Shown in pieces: positions 7,299 to 57,110 of a stretch of 64,000 bases of DNA (position 1 is its first letter; each line of letters starts with the position of its first letter). The translations under genes were made by a program, and so were the position numbers. Origin of the DNA: Ceratodon purpureus. Taxonomy: Eukaryota > Streptophyta > Bryopsida > Pseudoditrichales > Ditrichaceae. Location: positions 4,328,752-4,392,751 of the forward strand of contig CM026425.1 in NCBI GenBank assembly GCA_014871385.1, read 5' to 3'. The notes beneath the pieces were generated by a model. That model had not been told where the DNA came from. It searched no databases and saw only the letters and a program-made list of their open reading frames with translations.

Positions 7299-7338
<40 letters not shown>

Positions 7339-7736: not shown

Positions 7737-7740
7737 TTAA

Positions 7741-7755
7741 CCCTTTTAAGATGTT
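7741..7755 (+). repeat. piggyBac left terminal inverted repeat, TTAA outside
   Basis: CCCTTTTAAGATGTT directly follows TTAA at 7737-7740. It matches the complement of 18713-18727 at 15 of 15 bases. The adjacent inner base differs between ends (T versus G), so the perfect repeat stops there. Confidence 0.88.
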
Positions 7756-8678
7756 TGGTGTCGGAGCTACTCTATGTGGAGATGGGTATTTCTGGGGGTA
7801 CTTATGGTGCGCGAGCATTTGTGCAACGTTACGGTGGAAGATTTGTTAGAGGAAAATTACTGCTGGAGCCTACTGAGGTGATGAAGAGAGCGGTGAAATC
7901 AGAAGTGAAATCGGAGTTATAGCGAATTAGGAAGAAATTTGGGAGTACGAGTGGGTGCGGGGAAGTAGTCGAGCTTGAATTTGTAGTGTGCATGTGGACA
8001 GGAACAGTAGCTTCTGACAGCGTAGCCTTATCGATGGGGACGTATCGATTCTCACGCGAGAGGGGCACCGGGTGGGAAGGTCAACCGATGGTGTCCTCGG
8101 GTTCCGAAAGTGACATGCACGCCCGGTAGCCAATCGGGACGCGTCGACGTGGGTAACGGTTGGGGTTGTCAGAATGTCCCGCGGCTGTGGCATGGGGTGC
8201 ATGTCCCGCCCCCGTGAAGTCACACAGAAACAGTTAGGCGTAGAGAAACGTATATCACATTATTTCAAGTTTGCCCATGAAATGAGCACACACACGGGAG
8301 CTCATATTAGACGAGAAAGTGTCCCTGAACCTACGTATTCAAAACCCATCATGTGAGTCCCCACGAGTACTAAAGTCTGTAAGTAACAAACATCTGTGTC
8401 CAGAAATGGAATGCAGACGGAGTTCCAAAAATTCCCCCCGCAAATTCGAACATACTGGTAGGCAAGTATTCCTGATATCTACTTGGAATAGTACTACTTC
8501 TAAAGCCGGTAAAGCTGTATCACTCATCACCATAAAAGTCCATGCAATATGGTGGTGCACGAGGAACTCCATTGCAGCTTCTGAAGAGCATGTCGCCCGT
8601 GGTCACTGTCACAGATGGAGCCGCAACGGCGATTCCCTGCAACGAACCCCGTCATTCCTTCTTCACCTTCCACTGCAA

Positions 8679-9715
8679 CTACTTCACTTTCGTGAAGACA
8701 ATTGTGTCCCCGACCTTGAGGTTGTTGAGTTCTACAAATGCAGACCAGCCACTGCTGAAGAAACAGAATGTCTGCTTCTTAGTGACACAGACAGAGCTCC
8801 TGACGACGGCCTCACGATATGGACTAGCAAGGGTGTGTAGGGTTCCGTCGAACTTTTCAGGTCCGAGAGAGCGCCAGAGTGATGTAGGGAAGTCCTGCAC
8901 GGGGCCGCAATGAAAACAAAACTCGAGCTTAGTCATGGTTTACGGTATCCGTGCTAAACAATAGCTGGCACTGAAGAACAACCATTGGCGAAAATGCAAA
9001 ATCAGAGTGGACTCCATATGCAACGTGGTTGGGAGCAATAGAAACTTACGAGCCGTGCTGACTTCCGGGTATGTGAGACACAAAGTTTCTTCTTGAAGGT
9101 AATGGTGTCTTCGTTGATCACCTCAGGGGCAGCGAGTACGCAGTCTGCCTCATCCGTCCGCTTGCAATAGGCAATGGTTGCGACGAGGCACCTGGAATCC
9201 ACCACCTCGAAGACGATCAGGTCACCAGCGTCCACATCTTGGTCGCCTACAAACTTCAACCAACCAGCGCTGTCCGACACGGAAGATCCAAAGAGAAGTG
9301 CTGCACGACAGTGGGGTCATATGCACAGGCCACTCAGTCGGCTTCTTCTGTGATGTGACGAGGCAACACTTCGCTCCCGAAGGCCATGCCGTCTTCGCTA
9401 CGAAATCAGCGGGGACCTCCTGGTAGGGGACAACATGAAGATAAACGGTTTTAGGAAAACGACAAGCAGAGGCGCTTCCCACGAAGTGGGCGTCTGCAGA
9501 ATGTGATGAAACGGACGACAAAGCGTAGCGTACAAGACCGAATATGCAAACATTCTAACCAACTACAATCCATTAGCAACATTTGTGCACTTCAAATGCG
9601 GAAGGAGAGATACCAGGCGGGTAGGCTCTGTCTTCGAGATCATGCGGACCGTGAAATACTCAACGCTCGCCTCGTCCATATCGTCCAGAATCATCTTCTC
9701 GATACCAGAGGCCAT
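8679..9715 (-). pseudogene. Two-domain B3 DNA-binding protein with one frameshift
   Basis: B3 is the plant-specific DNA-binding fold of ARF, ABI3 and REM proteins. Exon 1 is 9715-9614 (MASGIEKMIL... to PTRL), exon 2 is 9419-9050 and exon 3 is 8894-8679. Exons 1-2 make domain one: FTVRMISKTEPTRL joined to EVPADFVAKT, then GWLKFVGDQDVDAGDLIVFE. Exons 2-3 make domain two: KSARL joined to DFPTSLW, then GWSAFVELNNLKVGDTIVF. The two introns fall at the same place in each domain (RL|EVP and RL|DFP), so the domains are an internal duplication. Exon 2 is one base too long: the frame must shift near 9285-9300, between PLSCSTSLW and SVSDSAGWL. This is either a real inactivating indel or a sequence error. 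Expected product is about 228 residues. A TATA element sits at 9862-9857. Confidence 0.75.
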
Positions 9716-9856
9716 TATTACAAGAAATCTGTAAGCACGTAAGAACTGAAGTAAGCAACAGAGCACGGAATTCGTCTGACGAGGAGGAAGCAAGGAAGCA
9801 AGGAGACAATGAGCGAGAGAAAGAGAAGTGGAGAGTAGTGCTAGAGGAGGTGTTTA

Positions 9857-9862
9857 CTTATA
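9857..9862 (-). promoter_or_regulatory. TATA box of the B3 gene
   Basis: The minus strand reads CACTATAAGTAAACA. The TATA core lies about 140 bp upstream of the B3 ATG at 9715, which implies a 5' UTR of roughly 110-115 nt. It fits plant TATA spacing, but transcription was not tested. Confidence 0.5.
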
Positions 9863-9999
9863 GTGCACACCCTCTGTAGGGGACGACTTCCGGTTTGAGA
9901 AGTAATTGCCGAAGCCTGCATTCGGCGAGCAATCTGGCCTAATGCATCCCATCCGAAGTTATTGCGTCGTCTGCAAATTAATGCGCCGACTTTTTCAAC

Positions 10000-10077
10000 A
10001 ATCTGCAGTCCCCAATCTGCAGCCCACAGTATGAAGTCCCTAATCTGCAGCCCACAGTATGCAGTCTACAATACGCA
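10000..10077 (+). repeat. Short iterated motif upstream of the B3 gene
   Basis: AATCTGCAG occurs at 10000-10008, 10014-10022 and 10042-10050. The last two head a 28-bp unit (AATCTGCAGCCCACAGTATG plus 8) repeated with small changes. The array lies about 140-210 bp upstream of the B3 TATA box on the minus strand, so it could be a cis-regulatory cluster or a small tandem repeat. Confidence 0.5.
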
Positions 10078-10462
10078 AAGTGAGAGAAAAGACATCACAG
10101 GAACACAAAATGCCCGTATTACAAAAGGGAGTTCAAATACAAGACCATGTTCAAGCATGGGAAATGTTCGCATAATGAAGGACGATGACATCGCCAACAA
10201 GCTCTACCAAATGCTGCCTAAACAGAGGACTTCCAAGCACTTGAGAGCAATTTTGGAGGTAGCACAACCTCGGACCTCAAAAGGTAAACTCCCAACGTCC
10301 ACCGTGGAGTGGGCACTCTAAATCATAGCACTCAGAGTCGCTACTGTGACCACTTCCGCCCGTGGAGGTTGTGTCGGACTCTGACTTATGCACCGTCGAA
10401 GGCGGGCGTCCCCGTATAACACCTCGAAGATGCATGTCCTCTTCCCCGCAATTCCCGAAGGC

Positions 10463-10484
10463 GGGGGGGGGGGGGGGGGGGGGG
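10463..10484 (+). repeat. Homopolymer run of about 22 G
   Basis: A pure G run, hence C on the coding strand of the surrounding element. It is prone to slippage and assembly error, so reading frames across it should not be trusted. Confidence 0.8.
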
Positions 10485-10501
10485 CATGACCCCTGCATCT
10501 G

Positions 10502-10932
10502 TCACCGCATTCGCCATGGGGTGGAGTTGGCCAACACTGCACTCGGCGATGACCATGGCGGGTGTCTGCGCCACATCAACGGGGCTGCAGGCTCCACCGG
10601 TGTGTGGTGAACCACCCCTGTGAGTGCCACAACTGCATCGTATTGACGACTACAGAGGAGGGTCCATTCGAATACAAAGTCATCGTCAAGGAGGTGGGAG
10701 ATGGCGGAGTAGCATGGAAGCTCTAACTCCCAGTTTATTTCTTCAAAGAGCTGCACGCGGCGAAGCCATGATCAAACATCCTGCACAGTCGCCGGGCGGG
10801 AGGAAGAGATCGCACCAAATCCGCGTTTCATCCTGCACACAATAGATCACTGTCAGTGGTGTAGCAGATCCAGCACTCATAAATGCAACAGCGAAGAAAT
10901 GAGTTGAGAGGAAATGACAGAGCCTTTTCATG
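10502..10932 (-). pseudogene. Possible second B3-like locus
   Basis: A short first exon-like stretch from the ATG at 10932-10930 (HFFAVAFMSAGSATPLT) parallels the B3 strand FTVRMISKTEPTRL of the neighbour. Downstream, LPCYSAISHLLDDDFVFEW and VVAL align by eye with the B3 end GWSAFVELNNLKVGDTIVF. A TATA-like ATATAAG lies at 10950-10944, very close to this ATG, so the true start may be further in. Splice sites do not join into a full domain. It could be a decayed paralogue or chance similarity. Confidence 0.35.
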
Positions 10933-11426
10933 GTAGTCGCTCTCTTATATGTGTCACGACGGGGCACTGAAAGGACCCCCCCTACATACAGACATAGGGG
11001 TCACACAAAATGCACTGTACCGCTTTGCTTTACCGAGCGAATCACCCAAACCTTGGAAGATCTGTGCCGCCATGCATTGGGAATTCAGAAATCAGTGCAG
11101 GTAAGTCAATGACATCTACAACCAACATTGCGAGAGAAGACTTATTGTCCGTTGAGAGTTCAGTAGAAGCACGTTATGGTACGTTGATGTTGAAGTTGCA
11201 CACCGTCTCTACGTATGTCTCTATCCGAGAGTCTACATCTTGTCCTCCAGGTCGGAGTCATTCAGTCTGAGTACTATGAGATGTAATTAATATGAGTCGG
11301 GGAAAATTAATATGAGATGTAACGTGAATGGCCAGTACAGCTGATTAAAGTGGGAATTGCAGGAGGGGACTACCTTTGATTCAGCACTGAGATTCGGATA
11401 CGTAGCTCGTAACTCTGAATCCGATT

Positions 11427-11680
11427 CAAAGGATACCCTTCACCCTCCAGCAGTCCATAGACATAAAAGTTACCTGAAGTGAATGAAGTCGGCTCAAACG
11501 GGAAACATACCTGAGTTCGGGCTTCTCACAGACCGTCTGCAATCTCCCACCAATGTCTCCCTCTTGGTTCTGCACAGTAATTGACCCATACAACGCAGTA
11601 ACCTTACTGACACATGTCGGATCAATGAGCCGGGCTATGGGAATGGAAGAAACGACCAAAAACACGTGTGTCCTGAACAA
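11427..11680 (-). pseudogene. Possible third B3-like fragment
   Basis: An 84-codon open frame contains FLVVSSIPIARLIDPTCVSK and GSITVQNQEGD, which resemble the first strands and the basic loop of a B3 domain. A donor-like CAG|GTATGT follows PELR. No C-terminal half was found in a joinable frame. The call rests on pattern resemblance and on the neighbouring B3 gene. It may be a relic. Confidence 0.3.
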
Positions 11681-12369
11681 CGAAGTGTTCGGAAGATGGT
11701 ATCGTCACAGAGCCAAAGTCCACGAACCTAATGAAGGAGTTAGACTCTGAGTACATGTGTGTGAAGGGAGCAAGTCGTCCATCCTGTGCTGGGGCTTGTC
11801 ATGTCTGTGGCACTTACAAAAATGGACATGAATTCTCATATTACTGAACTTAGAAATCACCCATACCTTCACAGAGCACTCCAGTAATGTTTAACCCAGA
11901 AGTCGACTGAAACAAGAAAGCACTTATCTCCGTCATTGAAATCTCTGTCCAACATTGCACAACAATGAGAAGGAACAAAGTGAAGAACACAATGTAAAAA
12001 CATATGAACAAGACATTTCCCACTCAGAACCTCGAAAAGTGACGCACAACGGGGGAAAAAAAACCAAACACTACCCTACACGTCCCAACAAGTCGACACT
12101 ACAGCATTTACAGACACACTGTTCAAAGTCTCAGTTGTTCTTAAAAACTGTAAAGTCTCTGCATTCGTCCGCAATGTACATAGCGGGGAGTTAGGGGCGA
12201 CATGGCATGGCAGCCGAGGACCACAGATCTGTCGTTGGGAACATCGAAGCAGCCGGTGCTTCCAAATTAAAGAATTGACCAAGCATGTTGCACCAAAGCT
12301 ACCGCCAGAGACTTGTGGAGGACCCCCTCAGAGTGAACGCCGTCGGCTTTTGGTGGTCGTACTCGGTGT

Positions 12370-12409
12370 GCCTGCGTCGCGTTCAATTTGCCTGCGTCGC
12401 GTTCAATTT
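12370..12409 (+). repeat. 20-bp perfect tandem duplication
   Basis: The unit GCCTGCGTCGCGTTCAATTT occurs twice without interruption, downstream (transposase sense) of the transposase gene. No function is evident. Confidence 0.7.
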
Positions 12410-12506
12410 GCATATTCCACTCCCAATTGTTGGCAGTCCACGCCCGAAGAGCAGTCAACCCCTGCAAGTACCGCCACAACAAGAGTGGACCGAATTAGTC
12501 TTCAAT

Positions 12507-12643
12507 TTATGCTTGATTTAGATGGACATGGTGCTCGTAGTAGCAACGCTCGCGGCACATCCATTTGTGTCCGCAAGGGGCACAGTACCAACGCTGGATA
12601 TGTTCGCAAACTACGCATTTCCGCTTCAACGGGACCGGAAATG
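12507..12643 (-). pseudogene. Cysteine-rich zinc-binding C-terminal domain of the transposase, out of frame
   Basis: The minus strand, shifted by one base relative to the transposase frame, encodes KRKCVVCEH... with spacing C-X2-C-X7-C-X2-C-X5-C-X3-C-X3-H-H-X-H, ending at TAA 12509-12507. This is the arrangement expected of the C-terminal cysteine-rich domain of piggyBac transposases, which binds the transposon ends. The main frame stops at 12628-12626, inside the overlap. The domain is therefore separated from its catalytic part by a single small indel. No intron of plausible length could join them. A sequencing error or an inactivating mutation are the main explanations. Confidence 0.75.
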
Positions 12644-15079
12644 AGCGTGTGTTGGCGCGGGTCGACGACGTCTAGGTGCTGGTCGCTGCATTGCGCGGCG
12701 GCGTCCCTGTAGCGCTTGCTCAATCAGGTGCTTCTCCACCGCTATTTTAAATTTCAAGTGCGGTCCGACCCGGAGACCAGCGTCCTGCATCCTTTTCACC
12801 CATGTCACATATGCATTTACCATTGTCTGGTCCACAATGAAGTGGAAGAGCTTGATCCACCATTTGTGGCACCGAAGCTGGGATGAGTAGTTTCTCCTTA
12901 ATTGATCTGTAATGTCAACGCCGCGCATGTATTCTTCATACTGCACGTGCATGGGCGACGAGGGGATTATCAACTGCCCACGCATTCCGGGAATGCGCCG
13001 CAGGACCTGGACACCGGGCTCCCACGGCGCTGCAGCTGTGCTTAGGAGAGTTACTAATTTAGAGTCCTGCCAGGAGACGACCCCCATCTGCCGATGGACG
13101 TGGGTTCGTATCAACATCGACCCCCTCACATCGCCATCGTTTGTCCTGTACAGCCCCGCTGGAAGATTCTTGGAGGTCCGTTTGACTGTCCCCGTAGCCC
13201 ATATCCCCTGGACCATGAGCTGGTGGAATAGATTTACGCTGGCGAACAAGTTATCGACTACAAGGCAATGCCCACGGTGGTGTAAGCCAGCGGTCATCCT
13301 TTCCACGACGTGGTATCCTAGTCCATGCTCTCCGAGACCCGTACCCTCACCAAAGTAGACTTTGATTCTCCATACAAATCTACTCTTGGAGCTCGCCAGC
13401 ATCCAACATTTAATTCCAAACCGGATGGGCATATCGGGCATGAACTGCCGAATGAAGCAGTAGCGTCCCTTGTACGGGATGACGCACTCGTCAACCGTGA
13501 TCTCTCTGTCCAGGTTGTAGATAGCTTCTGATACCGTCATGAACATGTCCAGAAGCCAGCGGGTCTTGGCGATCTTGTCATACAGAGGGTGCTTGACGTC
13601 CCTAACAACGGTGTCATTGTCCACTAAATGGAGACACCTCAAGATCTGCTCCCATCTCGCTAAGGACATCACCTGAGAGATCAGGTTGCAGTAGATAAAG
13701 GGTTCGCCACGCATCCAGTAGTGCCTCTTACTGGGCAACTTCTTGCACCCCATGAGGATGCAGATTCCTATCCACCCGCGGATCTCTGCTCGGTCGACAT
13801 CCTTCCACCGCGGACCCCCCTTCGTGCTCTCACAGACACCACCGGGCTGGAGAAGGGGAACTCTGGCATACCTGTTTGTCTCTGTAACGATTTTGTCTAT
13901 AGTGTCGTCACTCCAGTAGAGGTTGAAGACATCTTGGGGCTGTGGTTCCCCTGCCATTGTAGGAATCTTCAACCCAGGGGTGGGGCCCGTGAAATTATCC
14001 CAACTTCTCACGTAGTCCACGGACGCGGAGCTCCAGGAAGACTTCCTGTAGTACCTCGCTAACTCGGCCATGCCCAAGTAACCTCGGGTGAAGGCCTCTG
14101 GCCTCATGCACCAGTCTGCAAGACCGTCGTCGGGTAAACCTGTATCATCCAAGTCGTCTGGTTCGAAGTCTGACTCTTCGCTTTCCACAGTGTCCTCAAA
14201 TTCCAGGATCCACTCCCTCTCACTGGAATCACCTCCAGCGACCTCGGGGACTGGGTTATCGTCACTGGAGTCTGCCTCTGAATCCTCGCTCCCCGGCTCT
14301 GTGACTACAACATTCCGTTCCAAGACCGTGTATTCTGGAAGGGAGGAGCTTACCTTCGGAAACGTCATGCGGGCCGTCGAATCTTGGGTCCCGTCTACTC
14401 CTTCCACATCCGAAGGAACACTGTAGTCTCTGATTGGATCACCTTCAGGGTACTTCACTTGGCGCTCTGGCTGGACGTTGTCGGCTATGTGCTCGGTTCG
14501 CCCAGCACCTTCCTCTGCTCTCACGGGACCACTATCCCCTAGACCCGAAGACCCTCCCCCACCCGAGATACCTCCGAACCCCGAAACTCCTCCTACTCCT
14601 GAAGTCTGTCCCACAGCCTGACCTCCCCCATGTCCCGCTGCGGGTACAACACTTCCTGGCTCAGAATCCATTACAACTCGTGCAGCTGGGCTGAAGCAAT
14701 GTCGTCGCGTGCTCCACCCATATCCGTGGCCGCCCTCGCTTCCAGTTGCCCGAATATTCGGTCCCAGGGCGACTCGGACGTCTTTCTCCTCCATGTGCCT
14801 CTCGCAGTCAAATCCTCCAATATCAACAACGACCATCTTCTTCCCAGTGACGAAGCTAATTCCCTCTCCGATGACATCCCCTTGGGTCCACAAAGGTGTG
14901 TAACCCGTGTGGAAGGAGGATTCGGAGAGGAAGCGGTTAGGCACAAGCACCGCCCACCCTGACCGTGCTCCACTCCATTCACTGTACAGAGTCCGGAAAT
15001 GATTGGGCATGTCTTCGCAAGGAATTGAAGGTGGTGCAACAATTGTCCCCCCTGGATGCGTTTCCTCAAAACCGGTCAC
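12626..15079 (-). CDS. piggyBac transposase (DDE_Tnp_1_7 type), intact DDD core
   Basis: Cuts and joins the element at TTAA by a hairpin pathway (family knowledge). The 817-codon frame has a novel N-terminal part (residues 1-200, glycine-rich around 150-185), an acidic stretch (about 220-325) and the catalytic core from about 365. The core carries the three aspartates: D530 in VDECVIPYKGR, D609 in VVDNLFAS and D722 in GVDITDQ (with D725). The insertion-domain region and the FKIAVEKHLIEQ helix follow. A second start, MDSEPGS, is at residue 137; the upstream part may instead be spliced from the neighbour 52 bp away, whose frame stops at 15131. The C-terminal zinc domain is displaced by a frameshift. 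piggyBac genes are rarely reported in land plants as far as I know. Confidence 0.93.
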   Translation of the reverse strand: MTGFEETHPGGTIVAPPSIPCEDMPNHFRTLYSEWSGARSGWAVLVPNRFLSESSFHTGYTPLWTQGDVIGEGISFVTGKKMVVVDIGGFDCERHMEEKDVRVALGPNIRATGSEGGHGYGWSTRRHCFSPAARVVMDSEPGSVVPAAGHGGGQAVGQTSGVGGVSGFGGISGGGGSSGLGDSGPVRAEEGAGRTEHIADNVQPERQVKYPEGDPIRDYSVPSDVEGVDGTQDSTARMTFPKVSSSLPEYTVLERNVVVTEPGSEDSEADSSDDNPVPEVAGGDSSEREWILEFEDTVESEESDFEPDDLDDTGLPDDGLADWCMRPEAFTRGYLGMAELARYYRKSSWSSASVDYVRSWDNFTGPTPGLKIPTMAGEPQPQDVFNLYWSDDTIDKIVTETNRYARVPLLQPGGVCESTKGGPRWKDVDRAEIRGWIGICILMGCKKLPSKRHYWMRGEPFIYCNLISQVMSLARWEQILRCLHLVDNDTVVRDVKHPLYDKIAKTRWLLDMFMTVSEAIYNLDREITVDECVIPYKGRYCFIRQFMPDMPIRFGIKCWMLASSKSRFVWRIKVYFGEGTGLGEHGLGYHVVERMTAGLHHRGHCLVVDNLFASVNLFHQLMVQGIWATGTVKRTSKNLPAGLYRTNDGDVRGSMLIRTHVHRQMGVVSWQDSKLVTLLSTAAAPWEPGVQVLRRIPGMRGQLIIPSSPMHVQYEEYMRGVDITDQLRRNYSSQLRCHKWWIKLFHFIVDQTMVNAYVTWVKRMQDAGLRVGPHLKFKIAVEKHLIEQALQGRRRAMQRPAPRRRRPAPTHAHFRSR

Positions 15080-15130
15080 CTTCCGAATTGGCAGTTGTGT
15101 CCGCCAAGCATCTCCTCTGAAAACAGAGTC

Positions 15131-17775
15131 CTATAGATTCACGTTCATGGTGTCCATACTGCCCGGCGTATGCTGCGACTCAGGGGCGACCACATCTTCC
15201 GCATCGTCCTCGACAGCGTCCTTCAACTGGGCAAGAACATCCCTGATGACTGCATCGTCCTGCAGCTTCTGCGTGTACGCCAAGTCCAGACTTCTCTTCG
15301 CCCTCGTTACGACCCCTCCTGTTTCGTTTGCTGTAATTGGCGGAGGTGCCCACCGCTTAGGTTTCCGCCCCTTCACCTTCTGGTTCTTACCCTTCTGCGC
15401 CCTTGAAAACCTTCCCCCTCTTCCACGACGTGATGTTGCACCACAGTATGCCCACATCGGACGTATTAGTAGTGGTACAGTAGAGTGGCCCACATTCAAT
15501 CTGTTCTTCCCACAATTGTGGCCTTCAAAGTTCGGAGTATGCAAGTTTCTCGCAACAATGTAACCAGAAACTGATGGTATGCTCACTGCTCAGAAATTGA
15601 CGACATGAAGCGGACCATCGAACGAAATAGAAGGCACACCTTCATGACACAACATTGGATTTTATGTCCATACCTCCTGTCACAGTCCCCGAATCCGGAG
15701 GAGGTGGTCCAATTCCGCTTCGGGAGACGCTGTTTGGCATGGGCGTCTGCGTCTCCTGCATCGGAGGTGCTTGCATCGCCACCTTCCTCGGCTGCCGCTT
15801 CCTTTGCACCATTGTTTTCCCCTTCGGAGACAAGGTGTTGAATGCAACCACCGTCTCCGTGGTTGCTGTTTTGTTGTCCACAGGGAGCCGGAACGTGGAA
15901 GACGGGGTAATGACACCCGGCGTCGACACTGGACCATGGACCTCCTGCGTCGTTCACCCATGGCACATGGTCAGGGACTGTATGTTTCTTTGCAGAAAAT
16001 CTATGTTCATAGTGGCAATCGATGGTGGCACAATAACACCTTACCTTCTCTTTCCCCGTTGGCCTCCGCTGACGTTTCGCCTTCGGAGTCGGGGACATCG
16101 TCTGGAACGGCGGCAGGAGATCTCGAATTGCAGTGATGTCCTCCACATGTCCGGCGACCAGGAAAGGTGCGACCAGGAGAGGCTGAGGACACACCGAAGC
16201 CTGCTCCTACAGCATTGACATGATCGGCACATGGTGAGTGTCCACAACGTTAAAACCAGCATTCTTGGAGGTTGATGCTACACAAAAAGGAACATTGACG
16301 GAAGCATTACCGGTTTCTTTGCCCTGGGACGGTAAGCGCGCTTCGGCTTGACGGGGACATCCGCCTTTTCGGTCTCTATCACCTGGCTCAAATTGACGAC
16401 CATGTCCTGCATTCCACTCTTCGCACCAGAGTTACGGAACAGCCTAGAAGATAACACCAACTAACTGCTCTATTCCCATCCAATTCGTGCACATCCGCTC
16501 TCTATCCGAATATCATAGACCGCCTTCACATTTGTACAGAGTAGAGCATCAGTAAATGGCAGCCACAAATCATCAGAGCTTCATGGTTCAGTATAGTAAC
16601 ATTGGTGGTCCCTTACCGCTTTCTTTGCTCTCGGACGGTAGACGCGCTTCGGCTTCACTGGAAGTTCTTGGTTTTCCGTCTCTATCACCTGGCTCCCCGC
16701 AACGACCATCTCCTGCATTCCACTCCCATCACCAGGATTACGGAACAGCGTAGGGATTCAATGAACCATATGCGAGTAAGTGGATACTCTAATCCACTTC
16801 GTCCACATCCTCTTTCTGTCAGAAGTATCCTAAACCTAGGGACGCTTGTACAGAGTACCACAGAAATGAAGCATATCCATGAAAACCCGTAAACCAGAAT
16901 CTCAGAAGATGGTACTACACAGAAAGGTCCAATTCATGGAAGTTTACCGATTTCTTTGCCCGGGGACGGTAAACGCGCTTCGGCTTCACCAGGGGGTCGA
17001 TCTTCCCTGCCTCCATTACGTGCCTCCCCGCATCGACTAAGTCCTGCATTCCACTCGCAGCACTGGAATTACTGAACAGCCCAGAAGATGACAGTACGCA
17101 TATGCAAGTATATGGATCAAACTGCCGAATTCGTCTACGTCCTCTTTACTTTTGGAGTATCATAAGCCGATGAATGCTTCTATGCTTTTGAACAGAAACA
17201 AATGACACGCATAATTTAGTTCAAGGCAGATTCGAACGCATTACGTCCTTCCTTTCCCGCGTAGTTCGCACATTGTCGTCATTCTCATCATATCACAATT
17301 GGAAAACCACCCCACATAGAAACCCTAAACCCTTACCGGTGGAGGTAGGACGTGAGCGTCCAATGTCGAAATCGCGGTGGGCACGGATTGCTCCGACGGG
17401 AGCTTCTAATGTCTCGCACGAGCAAGCTTTTTCATCTCCGCTCAGTATACTCGGGAAGACGTGTTGCCGTAGAATCTCCTTAACGGCCTCCGGGAATTCC
17501 CTTCGCTCGTTCCACCCCAGAATGCGAGCAGCGTGTCGATACCAGAGGTACCGGCAGTGTTCTCTGATCCCAAAATTCCCTCGACGATTCCAACAAGCAG
17601 GGCGGAGCTCAGCTTGGATGTAGTCGATGTCACACAAGAGAATCGCGTGCCTGGCACCTCCCGCCGAGACTCCTTGCTGAAGAAACCACGCATACAACTC
17701 CCTGGGACAAGCCAGAATTCCCCCCGCTGTGTCCGATGTCTCGCCTGCAATGCTTGGAATAGTTTCTATGAACAA
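15131..17775 (-). CDS. Multi-exon gene for a basic, repeat-containing protein inside the element
   Basis: Function unknown. Visible parts on the minus strand are: an upstream exon-like frame (17775-17334) with CRYLWYRHAARILGWNERRE; three repeated 96-bp exons (17043-16948, 16712-16617, 16406-16311) each ending in KPKRxYRPRAKK; a 57-bp exon (16101-16045) with KAKRQRRPTGKEK; an exon 15944-15674 with KGKTMVQRKRQPRK; and a last frame ending at 15131 with RRGRGGRFSRAQKGKNQKVK and an acidic tail. All borders named have GT-AG sites. The basic clusters suggest nuclear DNA or RNA binding. The start codon and the phase of the first junction are unresolved (the 17334 donor is phase 1 while the repeats read best in phase 0), as is the last exon's acceptor. 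It ends 52 bp before the transposase frame, so the two may form one transcript. Confidence 0.5.
16311..17043 (-). repeat. Tandem triplication of a 96-bp exon with its introns
   Basis: Three units spaced 331 and 306 bp apart share the acceptor TGCAG|GA, a 96-bp exon and a GTAAxx or GTAATG donor. In phase 0 the encoded end VKPKRxYRPRAKK is conserved, while codons vary synonymously (CGG, AGA and AGG for the same arginine; GTT and GTC for valine). This argues for selection at protein level after duplication. The introns and flanks are less alike. Confidence 0.75.
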
Positions 17776-18389
17776 CTCCTGAATCGCATTCTCCTCTGCA
17801 CACAGAAGCGATCCTCCTTTTCTACCGAAATCGCTTCCACCTTCCCCCCCTCCCCTTGTACAGCTCCGTTGAATTTACATTTCCCCCGCATTTGCCCACG
17901 AAAACCAGTCCCTCCCTACACAAACGTCACAATCGCAAGAGGCTGCGGTAGTGCACGAAAACGGCAATGATCGATCACCACTCCAACGCGAAGAAACAAT
18001 TAAAAACTCCTCCACCCCCGGCACTCAAGCATTGCAAGCCGTGAAGGAAGGATCCAAAGCATTCTCGCGTCTCGCTGGGTGACACCCAACCCTAACTGCC
18101 ACGTACCGGCCGGACCGGTCACCCTACGGTCGATTGGGACCGTCGCTGACATGTCAGACCTACGGGTACTTTCCTACAGATAATTTCCGCCACTGCTACG
18201 AATACGTAGAATGCACACTTCGGAGTGAAATAGATTCTAAACCCTTGGTGTGCCATTTTTGCAAAAAATATGATAATTGCCTACTCACCTCTGCCCTCAA
18301 CATTGTAGTTCACTGCATTTGCTAATTCCCCATTCTTCACATCGATATGGCAATTTTAGAGTCCATCGAGGCCACTCCTGGCCTCAACA

Positions 18390-18708
18390 CATGGTTACCA
18401 AGTACGAGATACAAAAGTACAATACGTACTTAAAATACGTACATGTACAACGTTCATGTACAATGCTAAGTACAGCGATACAAAAACAATGTTATGCTTA
18501 GAATAAAAAAATAATAAACCAGAATGCAGAAGACCAGTGCTTCTCGGTGACTTCAATGCTTTGGCGGCTCGCGCACTCGCAACGTAAATTTTGGATGAAA
18601 GTCTTTTTTCTATTCAGTTGCTGTATTTCGTTCTCGAACACTGTATCAGTACAGTCAGTGTACAAGTACGTACTTGTACATACTTGTACAGCGTACTTGG
18701 TAACCATG
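18390..18708. mobile_element. hAT-like MITE, 319 bp, nested in the piggyBac right end
   Basis: Perfect 17-bp terminal inverted repeats, CATGGTTACCAAGTACG at 18390-18406 and its complement at 18692-18708, are flanked by the 8-bp direct repeat CCTCAACA (18382-18389 and 18709-18716). An 8-bp target duplication is typical of hAT elements. The interior is AT-rich, with several GTACTTGTAC-type subterminal palindromes and no coding capacity. The right target copy overlaps the first four bases of the piggyBac TIR, so this MITE landed in an existing piggyBac element. Confidence 0.9.
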
Positions 18709-18712
18709 CCTC

Positions 18713-18727
18713 AACATCTTAAAAGGG
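18713..18727 (-). repeat. piggyBac right terminal inverted repeat, TTAA outside
   Basis: AACATCTTAAAAGGG followed by TTAA at 18728-18731. It is the exact complement of the left end. The first four bases are also part of the MITE target duplication. Confidence 0.88.
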
Positions 18728-19543
18728 TTAATCCCTCAGTGGACTCATTGACCAGATTGGTCCACACAGACTTGCCATACTTTGCCATACATTCACCTCT
18801 GTAAGCCGGAGAACTCCTTAGTAAATCTTGAAAGTTCTTGGATACCCTCAAAGTCGAACACCACAACCAGTATAAATTTTCAGATTTTTGCATCATATCC
18901 ACCCGCCCAAACAATCACAACTTTGCTATGTACATACTCTGCATTCTATAATGCAATCCCACTTATTGGTAGAGTAGATTGGATCAAACAAAGGGCAAGT
19001 GTCACTTCATTCAACTCAACAAGTATCTCTTGCAGCATCCACCTATCAGAATGCTTCGAACTGAGACCCTTGATCCACGCTGGCGTGACTAGACATCCGG
19101 AAACCTAGCCTGACAGTTTAGTATGTGAAGCATTCTCGGTTGATACCCCTGCGATCAACACGAAAGGTACAGGTCCAATACCCGTAAAGCACATTTGTGA
19201 TACTCCGGCGATCATATCTACATATACCCGTGAATACCTATACGATACTATGGCAGTCATATTGTGATTGATACCCGAGAAATAACTGCTGTGATACTGC
19301 GGTGGAAACCTGTGAAGGCTGCTTGTGGAGACAATTTGTTGGCGATGCAATGCGAGGCTTCGCCATCGCCAGAGGCATGAATTGCACGGGGTTTAGTTTG
19401 CGGCGAGGCTGCATTTCTGCTTCTCACCAGGCGATGGCGATAGCCTCCATCGTCAGCTGATGAGGACAATGGCGGGTGCGGCCATGGCGTGAGCGAACAA
19501 GGATCAGACGAGGAAGAGCCGGGAGCAAGAGGCGGATTGCGTC

Positions 19544-32626: not shown

Positions 32627-35600
32627 CCATGCAAGCTCTGGACTAGTGCGTCCAGCTTGTGTTGATTCTTCAACGCCATGTCCGGATTAAAGGTTCAGGG
32701 CTCCACCGTGCGTATCCAGCCTTCAGCAGCGAAACCACATCACTAATCTGTCAGGCATCTCTGACATGCTTCAAGGATACTTGCATGGCAAGCGAGTTAG
32801 TACATTCTCTAATGTGAATGATGATTCATCTTACACTGTTAGGCTTCAACAGCTTGTTTGCTCTGCATAGTTGCAGTATTCAAGGCTGCTTGAGTTCTTA
32901 ACGATTTTGAAGAGGATGTGGGCTTACTTGTCAGTCGACACACAATGCACTAGAAAAGATAAGACTACTAGGACGATTAGGTGAAAATTTTATATATCCT
33001 ATTGTTATGGAAAGCAGATTTAAATGACTATTGGAACTCACTTTCGGTGCGAAGCTCAATCATTTCTTATGTTTCGCTTACATTTTTTGGAGACTCGCGT
33101 CTCATCAAACGAGCGGTCATTTTTCTACCTTTTCGAAGTTGAATATCTTGTCACTTGTGCTGACAGTATAGTCCAAAGAATATCTGCACAAGCAGTACTG
33201 TATCAAATGCATGAAAGGCATGGAATTTCTTATACTTGGTTCAGAAAGAGAGCAATGACGAGTCCCGCACTTCTGCTTCATCAGCATGGAGATTGTTGAC
33301 CCTCACAACGACGATGCGCCATGAGCCTGAGAAGGTCTTACGAATCGTCATGCATACGTTGCTTCTTTACAGATATTAGAGTTACGCATCACCATCACAT
33401 GCTGGGCTGAAAGCACCGTTCCCAAAAGTGCGCGCTGCGTTGCCTTGCATGAAAATCTCCAGTAGAGCCCAAGTCCATGGCGACACCCGTACTGTCGGGA
33501 AACAAGGTAGTCTGTCAGAAGCAACGACAAGAGTCAGTATTGAAATTAAACGGTTGAAAATCAGAAATAACCAACCAACGCAGCACCTAGTGGGATGATC
33601 CACCGGGAATCAGATGGACTTCTGGTGAGATGTGCCTGAATCCAGACTACTGTAGCCTAAACCCTAACCCCAATGCTCTTGTTTATGGAATTGCATTATT
33701 GTGGGCTAAAGATCAACTATCTCATTGTGGCAGAAGGGAAGATTGGAATAATGGAGTAGTTAAAAATAGTGGAGTAGTTAAAACTCTCACTATTCTTTGT
33801 GGATGAGGAACATCCTTTACTTTTTGTGTTGTGCATCATTGGATGCTTAAATTGCTCTACATAACTAGTCAAGTGCAACAATCTACTCATCATTGATCTT
33901 CAGAGTCTATGGCTTAGGAACTCTTTCAATTTTTCCTAGTTACCGGTGACTGGAGAGGATTGCTCGACGTAAAAACTGATTTTTCAAGCGCCGTACAGCT
34001 TACCAGATCAGGTTCGCTTTCCCGATGACTACCTGCGATCATGTCCTGGGCTCTTTCCGGTATCAGTAGCTCTGCTTTAGAATTTCAGCAGCCTTGCACT
34101 GAGATTTGCGATTTCCTGACTACTTCACGTTGTTGCGCGCGGTGCCACTAGGAGAATCCGCACAGCGATCATGGAGCAATCTAATGGATCGACAGCAACT
34201 CAAGCCATACCGACATGGTCATCTCCGGGAGGGGAGGGAGAAGGGAGCTACAGTAGCCTATCCAAGTTGTGGAGTCGGGTGGGCAGCATGCTTGAACCCT
34301 CGCTCAAGCACGCCATTCTCCACCGATTCTCAGCGCCACAGTCCGGCACTGAGCCCATTCACTACGCCGATTTCGGATGTGCTGTGGGTGCCAATACCCT
34401 CGGCTTCGCCAAGTTTGTCGTCGATACCCTAAAGATGAGGCCAGATGTTATTGACAGAGACATTGTCTGCCATTTCGCCGATCTACCGTCGAACGATTTC
34501 AACACGTTGTTCAAGCAACTGCCACCGTTCACAGGTCAAGGCGATGGTAGCGTGGAAGAGAGGACTTGGTTCGCGGATGGTGTTCCTGGCACACACTACG
34601 GTCGCATGTTCCCGCGATCGAGTTTGCACGTCGCCATCACCACACTCACTCTCCATTACTTGTTCGAGGTACAGTTTCTGAACATTTCACATGTGCATTT
34701 TCTCATCATTCAACATCTAGCTCAGGAACACATAGTATCATGTCACACAAAGGAAGCTACTAATTCTGCTGCATGTGGAACAGCTTCCGAAATCCATCCT
34801 AGACAAGTCCTCGCCTGCGTACAATAAGGGCAAAGTCGGCTGCCACGGCTCCAGCCCTGCGACAGCCGAGGCGTACGCAAAAGTCTCAAGACAAGGCTTG
34901 CGCAAGTTCTTCGAATGTAGAGCGGAAGAAATCGCATCTGGTGGAGTGCTCGGCTTCTACTGCCTCGGGCGGCGAGATCGAGCACATCCGGAAAACCAGT
35001 TGTTCGACGAAGGCAGCTATTATGTACTCGACATTGAGAAAACATGGAAGGAGTTAGTGAACGAGGTAATTTCTTCAACGTCACTTCTACATGTCAAAAT
35101 ACCATCTCGATCCCCGTAACAGCAAACATCTCCACAACCTGCTCTGCTCATCTGCACTCATGAAGTATCATAACCCCAGCAATCCTTGTCAACTGCAGGG
35201 AGTCCTCACGGACGAGAGCCTCGACGACTTCAACTTACCGCTCTGCCACCCGAGCATAGACGAGCTGCAAGAGGCAATCGAGCATCCGCCGTCCGCGTTC
35301 CGTATCGAGAAACTGGACTTCATCGAGAAACGCCCGCTCGCGGATAAACCGATGGAATTCGACGACGCAGAAGCATACGGAAAATTCATGGCGGTCATGT
35401 TTGGAAACATGAGACCGATGCTTGCGAGTCACGGCCTTTCACCCGAGCTCACAGACAAATTCGAGGAGCGGTATCGCCAGAACTGCGAGAAGAGCTACGC
35501 TGTCAAGAAGGCTGCCGGATTTCCAATGAACATGAGCATGTGCGTCGCGGTTTTGGTCAGAAAATGAGAATCGCCGTGAAACCCTGGCGCGATCGCCATC

Positions 35601-36470
35601 GCCATCGCCGTGACACTCCATCGCCAGTGCTCTCGCTCTCTCAAGGAGTTCCGAGGCAATTTTCGGTTGATATCTATGTGATATTGCTATAATGCTAGTG
35701 TAATACTCGTCTAATACCCCGTTAAATACCGTGTAGTGTCTTGTTTTCTGACGTGGGTAAAGAGCACCATGTTTTCCTTCAACTGATATCATTCTGGAGA
35801 AACTAGTTTTTGGGTGATTTTTTTCATAGAACTATTTGTTGATGTTGCTGATAATATGATATATTGAGAATTATTGATATTATTTATAATATTTAAGTAT
35901 GAGTGTAATCATATTCTAATTTATGAAGTGTATGTTTAACTTGGTAAGAATAGACCCTCATATTAGAAGATTATTGTATGTAAGAATTCTATAATGCACA
36001 CTCAAAAATGAGATTTTTTGGGGTGTCTGGGTGTGTAACTTCCAAGTTAAAGTTTAGATTGAATTTTCAATATAATGAACTAAGTTAACACTTTTCAATT
36101 GCAATCTTCTATAGGAAGAAGAGATTCATACATAGGTGTTGCAAAATTCATATATTATATTGACATACAATTTAGGACAAAAGTTTTTCCATTGAAAAGT
36201 GAAAAAGCTGGAACATTGATTAAGATGGGAGAACATAAATTTATGGAGCATGCATAAAATAAAGGAATTAATAGAAATATAGAGATAAAAAACTTCTAAA
36301 TACAAGAAATACCTCATAATGGATGTGTTGTATTTATAAGTATTTTTGCATTTTATTCATAGGCACTTTAATAACTGCACATCTTCAAATTGGAATTTTC
36401 TCTTTTAGAAAATATAGTATATAATGTTTTAATTCTCCTATTCTGGACATCAAAGTTCAAAATCCAATTC
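30969..36470 (+). repeat. Segmental duplication, copy 1 (source-like)
   Basis: From GT14 intron 5 (CCTCATTATT at 30971) through SABATH 1 to its 3' flank, this block matches 48459-54440 in direct orientation. Alignable segments are 30969-31112, 33163-33960 and 34080-36470. Exon sequences of the SABATH genes are the most alike. Copy 1 contains a complete GT14 gene, which copy 2 lacks, so copy 1 is the likely source. Confidence 0.85.
34171..35567 (+). CDS. SABATH family carboxyl/N-methyltransferase, copy 1
   Basis: Transfers a methyl group from S-adenosylmethionine to a carboxylate or ring nitrogen of a small molecule such as salicylate, jasmonate or IAA in characterised plant members. The substrate here is unknown. 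Exons are 34171-34668, 34784-35065 and 35199-35567; 382 residues, a normal family length. The SAM-binding motif ADFGCAVGANTLGF (D67, G69, G73, N75) is intact. Other family blocks are VCHFADLPSNDFNTLFKQLP, VPGTHYGRMFPRSSLHVAIT, NKGKVGCHG, the long helix after SRQGLRKFFECRAEEI, GVLTDESLDDFNLPLCHPS and the C-terminal FEERYRQNCE. The ATG at 34171 is preceded by GCGATC. A telo-box (AAACCCTAA at 33659) lies about 500 bp upstream. Confidence 0.95.
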
Positions 36471-42463: not shown

Positions 42464-43415
42464 AATTATTCTATGATGTGTTTCTCCCATACCACTATAC
42501 TTTGAAAAGTATAAGCTTCCCAGCTTTGCGAAAGTTCACCTCCACTATGTCTTGTAAAACTCCAATATGATCCACAATGTGCTCTCCTTCAAAAAATCTA
42601 CACGCAATTCAAGAATCCCATGTTCGTCGATGCTTGTCAATTGAATGTCTTCTAAAGTGTCGACCATACGAAAACATATGTGAATGAGTTTTATACTCGT
42701 GATCACAACAGAATGAAATATCCTTCACAGCTTCGTCTTCAAGATTGATTGAATCAATATTTAATTGGTTCTCTTCTTCATGTTGTATAGTCATACGTAT
42801 CCAATCATCAATATCTGCAATTGGTTGTAAACGAATACGACGTTCTTAAGGATCAGCATGTCGAAATGCTCTCAATTCTTCACGATATTTCTCTACCACA
42901 TTGTTGTATCGATCGACATATGATTTCATTTTGTGGAAAGTTTAGGATCATACATATATTGATTTGTTGATAGTTTATGTCGTCATAATTGGAAAATCTC
43001 TTCATTTTGCTCTTACCCTATAGCTTTTGACCTACAAATCAAATCACATCGATGATTAATTTCAAAGATAATGACCGTTCCGAATAAAATGGTTCCAAAA
43101 TATAAAAGTATTATCCTACAAAATTCAAATAGACAATATATATATTAAAATATATATTCTAAGGAGAATTTTATAAACATAATAAATTGAAAAAACAAAT
43201 CAAAATCATCCCGTTAATAAACACTTGTTTTACAATTAATACCTGTGATTTTGATGTCTTCGATTTCTTTCCAAAATTGAGGAGTATATTCATCTAGTTC
43301 TCCAATCAAGCTTTGATGAATACCTATTGTCTCTTGTAAACAATAGCCTTCACCAATGCTTCCTTCCAATCTAGCTTGCTGTCTTAGAAAGCTCTTCAGG
43401 TTTTTGATGTATCGC
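42464..43415 (-). repeat. Inverted repeat, left arm (952 bp)
   Basis: Pairs without gaps with 44644-45595 (coordinate sum 88059). Comparing the arms by eye I found one internal difference (42933 versus 45126) and one near the outer edge (42467 versus 45592). It encodes, on the minus strand, the end of the DUF4218-like region and the DUF4216-like region of a CACTA transposase. Confidence 0.95.
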
Positions 43416-44354
43416 TTTACAAAAAACATCCATTGCATGTGCACTAGATCAGCGAATCGAACCTCTTCGGGTAGATGAATTAATAAATGCTCTTGCAAAT
43501 CAGAAAATGATGTTAGAAATTGCATTCACAAAATTAAATAGATATTGGGGCTTTTTTTTTTAGAAGTTCTAATTTATCCTTTTGCACAACTTTCATACAT
43601 ATATATCTTGCATATCGAGATAATCAATATACAGTTTCCTTGACACCATCGGATAAAGAATCATTCCCGATAATAGCAACCAGCAAATGATACCGCAATA
43701 TATTCAAGAAGTTGTGCTATTTCAAATCGGAAAACTTGTTGTCCTTTTTGTCGAACGCATTGTATAATATGGCTCCAAAACCTGTTGGGGTTCTTATGTG
43801 CTTCAAAGTTTCAAAAAATTCTTTTCTATCATATAAATTCATAGTATAAGGTGCCTTAATGAACTCCATCCTTCCTCTTGCATTCGGTTGTTTGTCCCAT
43901 AATACCTTCTTCGTACTAGTGATCTTCAAATCGGCTCTATAGCTCTCCGTGTCCTTTTCACCAATCAGATGATCAATCAACGACTTGCACATATTTTGAA
44001 AAACATGCATAGGGTCCAAAAGATGATGAATTTTGAGCTTTTCCCAATATTCCAATTCATGAAATATTGAATATCTCTTCATATCGTCAGGAAATTCTGG
44101 TCTTCTTTGAGCTTGGCTAGTGCTTGCTTTCATTGCATTATTTTGTTGAGTAGAATTCTATAAATAATTCCAATCTTCACCTTCATGTTTTTGAGGTTTG
44201 GGAGAAAATTCAGGCGATCCATTGAAGTAATGTTTAAGATTGTCTCGGAAATCATGGTCTTCATCCAAAAACATTCTAAATTCGAGATAATTACATTTGT
44301 GAAGAGCAATTGACCATCTTGCTTGAAGTTGGTCCATGTATGAGTAACATGCAT
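42609..44354 (-). pseudogene. CACTA TNP2-type transposase, broken
   Basis: Order along the minus strand matches plant En/Spm transposases. 44354-44130 holds a region before the catalytic block. 44133-43717 has LDPMHVFQNMCKSLIDHLIG, the counterpart of the LDVMHVEKNV motif. 43525-43214 has LQEHLLIHLPEEVRFADLVH, RYIKNLKSFLRQQARLEGSI and EGYCLQE (DUF4218). 42840-42609 has SYGRHFRRHSIDKHRRTWDS (DUF4216-like NGVRF block). Frames are separated by stops or introns and the C-terminal remainder is missing at the left breakpoint. Introns were not resolved. Non-functional as it stands. Confidence 0.8.
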
Positions 44355-44643
44355 TGTACCCTAAGGTTGATAAACCTTAACATCCAACACCCAATATACA
44401 ATTAATAAAATGTGTTTAAAACAAATACTATAAATAAGTTTTTAAATAAATAATAATTCTTTAATTGACATGTTCTCTTAGTTTCAAATTTAATCAAATT
44501 TTCTCTTTAATGTTAGTGTATTCACTCAAACATGCTGAAACCTGAAGAGCTTGCATACCTGAAGACCCCATTCCTCCTCCCCATCATTCTAGTATTGGAG
44601 AGAACATCTTTGGAGGCATGCATAGCATCAAAAACCAGAAGAG

Positions 44644-45595
44644 GCGATACATCAAAAACCTGAAGAGCTTTCTAAGACAGCAAGCTAGATTGGAAGGAAG
44701 CATTGGTGAAGGCTATTGTTTACAAGAGACAATAGGTATTCATCAAAGCTTGATTGGAGAACTAGATGAATATACTCCTCAATTTTGGAAAGAAATCGAA
44801 GACATCAAAATCACAGGTATTAATTGTAAAACAAGTGTTTATTAACGGGATGATTTTGATTTGTTTTTTCAATTTATTATGTTTATAAAATTCTCCTTAG
44901 AATATATATTTTAATATATATATTGTCTATTTGAATTTTGTAGGATAATACTTTTATATTTTGGAACCATTTTATTCGGAACGGTCATTATCTTTGAAAT
45001 TAATCATCGATGTGATTTGATTTGTAGGTCAAAAGCTATAGGGTAAGAGCAAAATGAAGAGATTTTCCAATTATGACGACATAAACTATCAACAAATCAA
45101 TATATGTATGATCCTAAACTTTCCAGAAAATGAAATCATATGTCGATCGATACAACAATGTGGTAGAGAAATATCGTGAAGAATTGAGAGCATTTCGACA
45201 TGCTGATCCTTAAGAACGTCGTATTCGTTTACAACCAATTGCAGATATTGATGATTGGATACGTATGACTATACAACATGAAGAAGAGAACCAATTAAAT
45301 ATTGATTCAATCAATCTTGAAGACGAAGCTGTGAAGGATATTTCATTCTGTTGTGATCACGAGTATAAAACTCATTCACATATGTTTTCGTATGGTCGAC
45401 ACTTTAGAAGACATTCAATTGACAAGCATCGACGAACATGGGATTCTTGAATTGCGTGTAGATTTTTTGAAGGAGAGCACATTGTGGATCATATTGGAGT
45501 TTTACAAGACATAGTGGAGGTGAACTTTCGCAAAGCTGGGAAGCTTATACTTTTCAAAGTATAGTGGTATGGGAGAAACACATCATAGAATGATT
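44644..45595 (+). repeat. Inverted repeat, right arm (952 bp)
   Basis: Near-identical inverted copy of 42464-43415, separated from it by a unique 1228-bp spacer (43416-44643) that holds the N-terminal transposase part. High identity implies either a recent origin or ongoing conversion. Confidence 0.95.
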
Positions 45596-48980: not shown

Positions 48981-51144
48981 ATTCCTGATAAGTTTTATCT
49001 AGACATCTCATGGACTGAAGACAACATGTTTTGAGCAGTCTGGGAATTTGGTGACGTTTCCTGAATGCTTACATGCTTTAAACAGTATAGTCCAAAGAAT
49101 ATCTGCACAAGCAGTACTGTATCAAATGCATGAAAGGCATGGAATTTCTTATACTCAGTAATGTTGGTCCAGAAAGAGAGCAACGACGAGTCCCGCACTT
49201 CTGCTTCTCTGCTTCATCAGCATGGAGATTGTTGACCCTCACAACGACGATGCGCCATGAGCCTGAGAAGGTCTTACGAATCGTCATGCATACGTTGCTT
49301 CTTTACAGATATTAGAGTTACGCATCACCATCACGTCATGCTGGGCTGAAAGCACCGTTCCTAACAGTGCGCGCTGCGTTGCCTTGCATGAAAATCTCCA
49401 GTAGAGCCCAAGTCCATGGCGACACCCGTACTGTCGGGAAACAAGGTAGTCTGTCAGAAGCAACGACAAGAGTCAGTATTGAAATTAAACGGTTGAAAAT
49501 CAGAAATAACCAACCAACGCAGCACCTAGTGGGACGATCCACCGGGAATCAGATGGACTTCTGGTAAGATGTGCCTGAATCGAGACTACTGTAGCCTAAA
49601 CCCTAACCCCAATGCTCTTGTTTATGGAATTGCATTATTGTGGGCCAAAGATCAACCTTCTCACTGTGGCAGAAGAGAAGATTGGATTAATGTAGTTTAA
49701 AATAGTGGGTACTCTCTTTCCTTGTGTTTTTCCAGTTGCCCTGCTCGTAAGATAAACCTCTCACTATTCTTTGTGAATGAGGAACATCCTTTACTTTTTG
49801 TGTTGTGCATCTTTGGATGCTTAAATTGCTCTGTCAAGTGTAACAATCTTCACAGTCCCTGTTTTTCTCTTGCTTAGGAACTCTTTTAGTTTTCCCTGGT
49901 TACCGGTGAGTGCAGAGGATTGCTCGTTGGGTAAACTGGTTGTGATGGACGTAGCAGTACATAGCAGTGTTGGAGCTCAGTTAATTAGTATGAGTGTGCT
50001 TATCGATATGAATCTTTTGACCTACTTAACCACTTCTGAGCTCGATTGTGTTTGTGCACTGTCATGCCCATTGGCCTCGCATCACTTCATATAGTTAGTG
50101 TACATGAAATATATCTATTAGGACTTGCATAGAGCTTGAAATGATGTATCTGGCATTGGTAACAATGGTTTTCGGTTTTTTAAGAGGGACTCGAGATGAA
50201 AACTGTACCTATATGAAACTCGATTCATCAACATGTCCTCATTTTAGCAGCATCTTTTCATTTGAATACCCTATTGCTTCATATGGATGACTGAAACTCT
50301 CCCCTCAGGAAGAGTGTAGTGTAAAATGTATGCCTTTCTATCTGAGCTTGTTGGTAGTAAAACACTGCGCGCAGGTTCTGAATGTTCCTGCAGAGCTTTA
50401 GATTATCGCTCCTAAGCACCTGTGTGTCAGATTAATATAGAGCAATAGATTGTGCAATCAGGAATAGTGCAAGTACATACTAGAGTCTAACATAGCATTC
50501 TGGTAGATGCACCTAAAATCACGACAATCTCCAAAACCACCACACCCGAGTATGACCTTATTAACCTCCAGAATCTCTAAAAGCAAATTGTCAGTCCTCA
50601 TTTGGAGGACTAATTTGCTTATTGGTCACCTTGTTAGTGGGTGAACTCTCACAATCATAAAATATGGTTTTGGATTAAATGGTGAGCAAAATTGAGGACC
50701 ACTATTATTGCTCATAGGAAACTCTGAGTTAGAAATGGGTCACAGAGTACTTTGCACTTTTTGAAATTTTCTATAAAATTGAGAATTGCAAATTTTATGA
50801 TGCAAAATTTTGCACTCCTCAGTGAAATCCTATTTTGAAGATTAGAATAATTTTAAACGAATTTTTGAATTGCTAAATATAGGTCAAATTGCTTAAATTG
50901 ATGGTTTTAAATGCATCTACCATACCACTTTTAGTATGATAAATGCTACGATTCTCCTTCTGCAGTCTAAGCTTCGACATAACCATGTGCTGTCTTCTTG
51001 CACTCTTTCAGTCGTGATGACCATCTACTTGATGCTGTTGTGCTTCTTCACTTTACCCACTAGGATCGATGGACGCCCAGATTTGTGATTCCCTGACTTC
51101 GAAACGTTGTTGCGCGTGGTGCCACCAGGAGAATTCGCACAGCG

Positions 51145-56220: not shown

Positions 56221-56962
56221 GAAGGGGATGAACACAATAAGTGGACCAAAAAAGTGCTTAACTATTTATCAGTTTCTGCCCTTTTGCAAAAATTGCACAA
56301 AAGTTATAGAAAGATATAATTTAATTTAGTTTTTTTGGCTAATATAGATTCTCAACTTGGTTTTCTACAACTTGGAAAAGTTTTGTGCAAAGTAGACACT
56401 TTAAAGTTATTGTATGAAGGCTTTAAATCCAAGCAAAGTGAATGCAGTCATTTGAAAAAGTGGCTAGAAAATAATCAAAAATTATCTAAAAATCACTTTT
56501 CATGAAGTCGTGCCCTCTATATGTTTAAGAGGTATTCTAGAACAGTCAATTCATAAGCTTATTAATTGGTTTACGGTTCTAAAAGTACAACAAGGATGTT
56601 TTTTAATAGGGTTACTTCTGCGGTACTTTTAGTGAGTTAAATTTCACCGAACGTTATTTTTTAATTGAAAAAAACATCCTCTAAAGACAATAGAGGGCAC
56701 CAAATGAAGAAATCAAGACTTTGGAAAAGTTCATTTTCATGATTTAGAACTAATGGTCAAATTAAGTTTCAATTGAAGATGTTCTTTTAACATAGATGCG
56801 TGGGAGATACCTCATGACACCCTAGAAAGTGACTAAAATGCTCAAGAACTACACCAAAATGCTCAAAATCAGTTTGAGCTTTGAAAAACAGCACACTTTA
56901 TATTCACTCCCTAGTGATCACATGTTGCACTTTGTGGTCCACTTTATTGTGCTCTTCCTCAG
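56221..56962 (-). mobile_element. TIR element family 'GCACAATAAAGT', inverted copy B
   Basis: Diverged inverted match of 58580-59320. The ends carry the family motif (GGGGATGAACACAATAAGTGGACC at the left, in degenerate form; CACTTTGTGGTCCACTTTATT at 56929 on). Internal anchors shared in reverse with copy A include the segment around AAACATCCTCTAAAGACAATAG. Non-coding. Confidence 0.6.
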
Positions 56963-57110
56963 AAGTAGAAAGGAATCGATATGACAATTTTTGTTCCAAA
57001 AACACCAAAGAACTTTAGAGGACAAGAATAATGAGATACAAAATGAATTGGAGATTTGTGGTTTTAGATTTGTAGCTGTGACCAACAGATTTTTCGGATT
57101 GTTAGTATAA

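Follow-up and report, generated by a model that had tools for sequence, protein, structure and literature searches.

A stretch of 64,000 nucleotides from the moss Ceratodon purpureus, the window of this analysis, carries two recognisable genes between a pair of perfect 15-bp inverted repeats that each adjoin a TTAA (Table 1). One of them encodes a transposase of the piggyBac type and the other a small plant-type protein with two B3 domains. An earlier note on this DNA, made from the letters alone, had described the locus as a giant piggyBac transposon with cargo genes all on one strand, and the two recognisable genes do lie on the same, minus, strand. The other genes recognised in the window were plant-like and comprised a SOR/SNZ (PDX1-type) protein, HPPK/DHPS, a P450 and two copies of a SAM-dependent carboxyl methyltransferase. 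The two carboxyl methyltransferase (SABATH-type) gene regions, at 33163-36244 and 49082-53181, are 88-94% alike, lie about 16-17 kb apart and are a tandem or segmental duplication. A 178-bp unit is present twice in tandem at 59143-59498 (94% alike), and a search of the window against Rfam gave no match.

Table 1. Features of the piggyBac-type element, in positions of the window
Feature	Position	Strand	Remarks
Whole piggyBac-type element with both TTAA target copies	7737..18731		10,987 bp between the TTAAs
Left TTAA and 15-bp terminal inverted repeat	7737..7755	+	exact match
B3 gene, two B3 domains, about three exons (9715-9614, 9419-9050, 8894-8655)	8652..9715	-	Pfam; tblastn with three Ceratodon proteins
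Transposase: DDE_Tnp_1_7 core, N-terminal extension, Cys-rich C-terminus	12516..15409	-	broken: in-frame stop 15131-15133, frame change near 12629-12641
Putative 5' exons of the transposase gene: three repeated 141-bp units and open stretch 17338-17850	15410..17850	-	probable
Nested 319-bp MITE, hAT-like	18390..18708		25-bp inverted arms (88%)
Right 15-bp terminal inverted repeat and TTAA	18713..18731	-	exact match

The terminal inverted repeat reads CCCTTTTAAGATGTT, and together with the adjoining TTAA the left and right ends were complementary at 19 of 19 bases. A first-order Markov model was used to simulate 200 sequences of 64 kb. Among their inverted pairs abutting TTAA and more than 500 bp apart, the longest measured 12 bp, and a 15-bp pair was never reached (0/200). 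Under a looser control, in which two mismatches were allowed and TTAA was not required, two matches to the 15-mer were also found in 3 of 100 shuffles. Ten TTAA-abutting inverted pairs of at least 8 bp are present in the window, of which seven are longer than the end pair of the element, and all seven fall within one or other of two extended inverted repeats (42464-45595 and 56510-59033). The first of these repeats has 952-bp arms (42464-43415 and 44644-45595) that are 99.8% identical, spans 3.1 kb overall and is either a foldback element or a recent palindrome. The second, with arms of 454 bp (56510-56961 and 58580-59033; 87%) around about 1.6 kb, happens, through its position, to include a TTAA-abutting pair of 23 bp. 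The ends of piggyBac elements are given in an excerpt of the Teratorn review (PMC10175614) as 12-19 bp long, starting with CCYT and next to TTAA. Those described here are 15 bp long and start with CCCT, and the TTAA target duplication of the superfamily is seen at both of them. The inverted ends are real transposon ends, in line with what the earlier note had proposed from their perfect pairing and their TTAA. No copy of the 19-base end was found among viral contigs.

The same note had placed the ends exactly where AT-rich sequence gives way to GC-richer sequence. This is so at the left boundary, where G+C rises sharply from 0.251 to 0.529 (over 500 bp); at the right one the step was small (0.498 to 0.439, with the nested MITE left out). 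No site with six or fewer mismatches to the 19-base end was identified between the two ends, and so there is no sign that the transposase and the B3 gene belong to two separate elements. The sequences just inside the two ends were not significantly alike, since resampling gave a score at least equal to theirs in 115 of 300 pairs. Inner ends and a longer terminal similarity were both looked for and rejected, since neither was found in the element. As to size, the word giant proved too strong: 327 bp of the distance between the TTAAs are taken up by the MITE and its duplicated target, and the element measures about 10.7 kb once these are discounted. The MITE has short inverted ends and is flanked by 8-bp target copies, CCTCAACA, at 18382-18389 and 18709-18716; hAT elements make target duplications of this length. 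The second target copy overlaps the right piggyBac terminal repeat by four bases, which means that the MITE inserted after the piggyBac element, and its insertion displaced the right subterminal sequence 327 bp inward. Runs of 38 T to the left of the element (7300-7337) and of 22 G inside it (10463-10484) mark two places where the assembly may be unsure.

The minus-strand frame at 12626-15130 holds the Pfam domain DDE_Tnp_1_7 (E 2.4e-71), so the piggyBac transposase that had been noticed inside the ends is indeed there. Its best PDB matches were the solved piggyBat and piggyBac transposases, at E 1.5e-28 and 1.2e-20 with the frame alone; with a family profile the same two structures were reached at E 7.8e-40 and 1.9e-33. 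Aspartates 547, 626 and 739 of the frame fall on conserved positions of the family-profile alignment, which in piggyBac transposases are the catalytic ones. A DDE_Tnp_1_7 transposase with three such aspartates is a feature of the piggyBac superfamily, and a catalytic triad is stated for PiggyMac in PMC8086355. A further feature of the superfamily, the Cys-rich C-terminal domain, was located just beyond the end of the frame, in another frame, where 17 of the 64 relatives aligned with it at E values of 1e-3 or lower. On the other side, nine of the 12 aligned relatives can be followed residue by residue out of the upstream frame 15131-15409 and into the transposase frame, over the in-frame stop of the moss copy; these relatives are predicted open frames, free of stops by definition, and it is the continuous similarity that counts. 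Judged from these alignments, the transposase gene is broken twice, by one stop and one frame change. The separate multi-exon gene for a basic protein that the earlier note had seen in this region did not hold: at least its last exon is the transposase's own N-terminal part, cut off by the stop. A basic-protein cargo gene was therefore rejected, since in the relatives this exon continues into the transposase, and the gene so described is wholly or partly the N-terminal part of the transposase.

Further upstream, 141-bp tandem units were identified at 16307-16447, 16613-16753 and 16944-17084, the second 79% and the third 74% like the first. Each unit carries a basic motif, KPKR followed by YRPRAKK. 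The open stretch 17338-17850 contained no Pfam domain, and E 0.56 was the best value that it reached against the PDB. Two more distant relatives, P0024 and P0028, likewise have basic motifs ahead of their conserved part, and for this reason we take the units and the open stretch as 5' exons of the transposase gene. When the repeated units were read by eye, a canonical acceptor was missing at the matching place in two of the three. The region 15410-17850 thus probably holds 5' exons of a gene that would run from about 12.5 kb to at least 15.4 kb, and probably to 17.9 kb, and the three units are probably repeated exons with a basic motif.

A protein search scored on residues 340-830 gave 64 matches to the transposase with E values up to 1e-5, of which 29 showed 63-73% identity. 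An organism is named for five of the 64, in each case an animal (27-29% identity), and none bears a plant name. The tree, a quick one with SH-aLRT support only, was built from the window and 63 of the 64 relatives (P0064, below the 480-residue limit, was left out). It grouped the transposase of the element with 27 metagenomic rows (support 99), apart from four named animal rows. Within this group, 24 of the 27 rows form a short-branched subgroup, which we read as the trace that a fairly recent burst would leave. The metagenomic piggyBac clade (P0001-P0032) shows the same N-terminal and C-terminal architecture as the moss transposase, in a comparison of the proteins alone. Pattern matches to the transposase numbered 70 in the viral and 23 in the prokaryote genome collection, but none could be confirmed as a relative. 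The earlier idea of a lineage can be kept for the transposase, which has its relatives in metagenomes, and is not supported for the cargo arrangement, which is read from one copy only.

Concerning the second gene, its second B3 domain scored 33.2 bits, above the curated Pfam cut-off of 30.1. The first reached 22.2 bits and stays below the cut-off because a frame change splits it. The alignment with Ceratodon proteins places this frame change between 9297 and 9289 and reveals, close to the end of the gene, a stop codon in frame (8679-8681). A query of full length had 178 candidates, of which three proteins reached an E value of 10 or below. They all come from Ceratodon purpureus (P0065-P0067: M758_4G025000, KC19_N041000 and KC19_6G042500), with E values from 1.2e-71 to 3.0e-68, 51-54% identity and 93-100% of the query covered. 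This search needs shared exact words, so that the lack of matches from other plants is weak evidence. The three proteins have two B3 domains, like the gene of the element, with B3 above the cut-off in each, and are 60-64% identical to one another; their gene names, as we read them, suggest locations on chromosome 4, on chromosome 6 and on a scaffold that is not placed. Unlike them, the gene of the element is broken and is located between transposon ends. The middle exon alone (125 aa), used as a protein query, gave five candidates, none at E 0.01 or less, the Ceratodon proteins being too long to count as candidates in that query. Among metagenome proteins no B3 relative was found, which is likewise weak evidence given the short exon fragments and the word-based search. 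Compared with the PDB, the B3 alignment profile retrieved one chain, weakly (TEM1, E 0.013), and the model predicted for P0065 was of poor quality, with a mean pLDDT of 45.3. The earlier note had spoken of several B3 genes. When the three Ceratodon proteins were compared with the window by tblastn, one gene with two domains emerged; all other matches in the window were at E 0.076 or worse, and a plurality of B3 genes was rejected. What is left of the proposed cargo is thus one plant-looking B3 gene between the ends.

Between the two genes lie about 2.5 kb (9.9-12.4 kb) in which no domain was recognised, with 8 of the 25 frames of at least 60 aa scanned. Neither these 8 of 25 frames, at 9.75-12.48 kb, nor two frames in the left 1.1 kb passed a curated Pfam cut-off, the best match below it being RPN13_C (E 0.0031, 18.1 bits vs a cut-off of 39.3), and further cargo genes were rejected on this basis. 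Within those frames of the element that the Pfam scan covered, no viral family, such as a fusion of the Teratorn kind would contain, passed its curated threshold either.

Every piggyBac feature that could be compared at this locus is present in the element. With Trichoplusia piggyBac and Myotis piggyBat it has in common the TTAA target, 15-bp ends starting with CCYT, the DDE_Tnp_1_7 core with its conserved aspartates and the Cys-rich C-terminus. It differs from both in its length of about 10.7 kb, the intron-bearing gene, the long basic N-terminus, the B3 gene between the ends and the broken state of the copy. The elements of this superfamily are best known from animals, as small single-gene units. 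An excerpt of the Teratorn review places most cut-and-paste transposons below 10 kb (PMC10175614). Teratorn of fish (PMC10175614, PMC6431247) is likewise a piggyBac element enlarged by foreign genes, through fusion with a herpesvirus. Yet Teratorn measures 41-182 kb, carries viral genes and is active, whereas the moss element is dead, has a single gene of plant type and showed no viral domain in those frames that were scanned. According to excerpts of three further papers, PiggyBac is among the superfamilies present in all taxonomic groups studied (PMC4438587), piggyBac-like elements occur in plants (PMC8086355) and the fern Ceratopteris has 1230 PiggyBac entries amounting to 122,417 bp (PMC6890710); piggyBac in plants as such is therefore not new. 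The word piggyBac is absent from a paper on Physcomitrium transposons (PMC7466625), and in an excerpt of PMC10619864 the word occurs only as 'piggybacking'. Among the matches listed from open-licence PubMed Central, no work dealt with a B3-bearing piggyBac or with a moss piggyBac.

The ends with their TTAA, the transposase domain with its conserved aspartates, the B3 domains, the lesions and the MITE are all present at this locus, and they most probably go back to a single event in which a DNA transposon of the piggyBac superfamily, about 10.7 kb long, inserted into a plant nuclear genome. PiggyBac transposases cut at the terminal repeats and insert into TTAA, and the intact element would have been moved in this way by its own DDD transposase. 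On the same strand it holds a transposase gene of several exons and a small plant-type gene with two B3 domains (8.65-9.72 kb), which entered the element at some time; the B3 protein perhaps bound DNA and so helped or regulated the element. The two genes presumably moved jointly, an arrangement known from a single copy. One stop and one frame change in each gene, together with the hAT-like MITE at the inner edge of the right repeat, mark it as a dead copy of a piggyBac lineage with metagenomic relatives. The equal lesions fit a common decay of the two genes since insertion, within the limits of small numbers and of the parts that are comparable. As a whole, we consider this account, one decayed piggyBac insertion enclosing a transposase and a plant-type B3 gene, to be probably correct. 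Speaking against it are the one copy, the small G+C change at the right, the unlike subterminal sequences, the lack of a B3 among metagenome proteins and the two repeated 5' units without a canonical acceptor.

How the B3 gene came to lie there can be read in more than one way. It is quite possible, if somewhat short of probable, that the capture was a single event, in which a common single-gene piggyBac of the host was mobilised from an end farther away, or two adjacent copies jumped together. The B3 gene would then be a passenger, of this copy or of a small subfamily, and would play no part in transposition. Such an event is compatible with the decayed insertion favoured here. B3 genes are ordinary plant genes, and among copies of the element B3 was met only here, with none in the metagenomes despite 29 close transposase relatives of 64. 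However, no remnant of an inner end was found between the B3 gene and the transposase, and the Ceratodon B3 genes, with their mutual identity of 60-64% and their names from different chromosomes or scaffolds, resemble mobile or duplicated genes, which is not proof of mobility. A single capture is opposed to the idea of a long, intron-bearing moss piggyBac lineage with the two-domain B3 as a standing second gene, a DNA-binding partner or regulator, whose remnants or domesticated descendants would be the divergent Ceratodon B3 genes; this we regard as rather unlikely. Still less credit is given to two things lying side by side, a shorter piggyBac that lost its left end and a separate host or mobile B3 stretch, with the far left end coming from another, deleted copy of the family. 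The stretch of about 2.5 kb without a recognised domain between the genes would suit this arrangement, but both ends are perfect and rightly oriented, each with its TTAA, and there is no end-like site inside. That the inverted pair is a mere coincidence in an ordinary genome with a piggyBac fossil inside is very improbable, for although the copy is single, longer TTAA-abutting pairs are present in the window for other reasons and the right G+C step is weak, a 15-bp pair was reached in none of the simulations, and this one starts with CCYT, has piggyBac length and brackets a piggyBac transposase.

If the B3 gene is the passenger of one dead copy, the locus amounts to a local curiosity. The element in any case marks a piggyBac clade otherwise seen here only in metagenomes, where the long frames of its relatives are open. 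A piggyBac of 11 kb enclosing a plant B3 gene is a real variant of the superfamily, in which such an enclosure would be unusual. Should the account given here be true, regulatory genes of a plant host can be captured by piggyBac elements, and small B3 families may have spread through moss genomes partly in this way.
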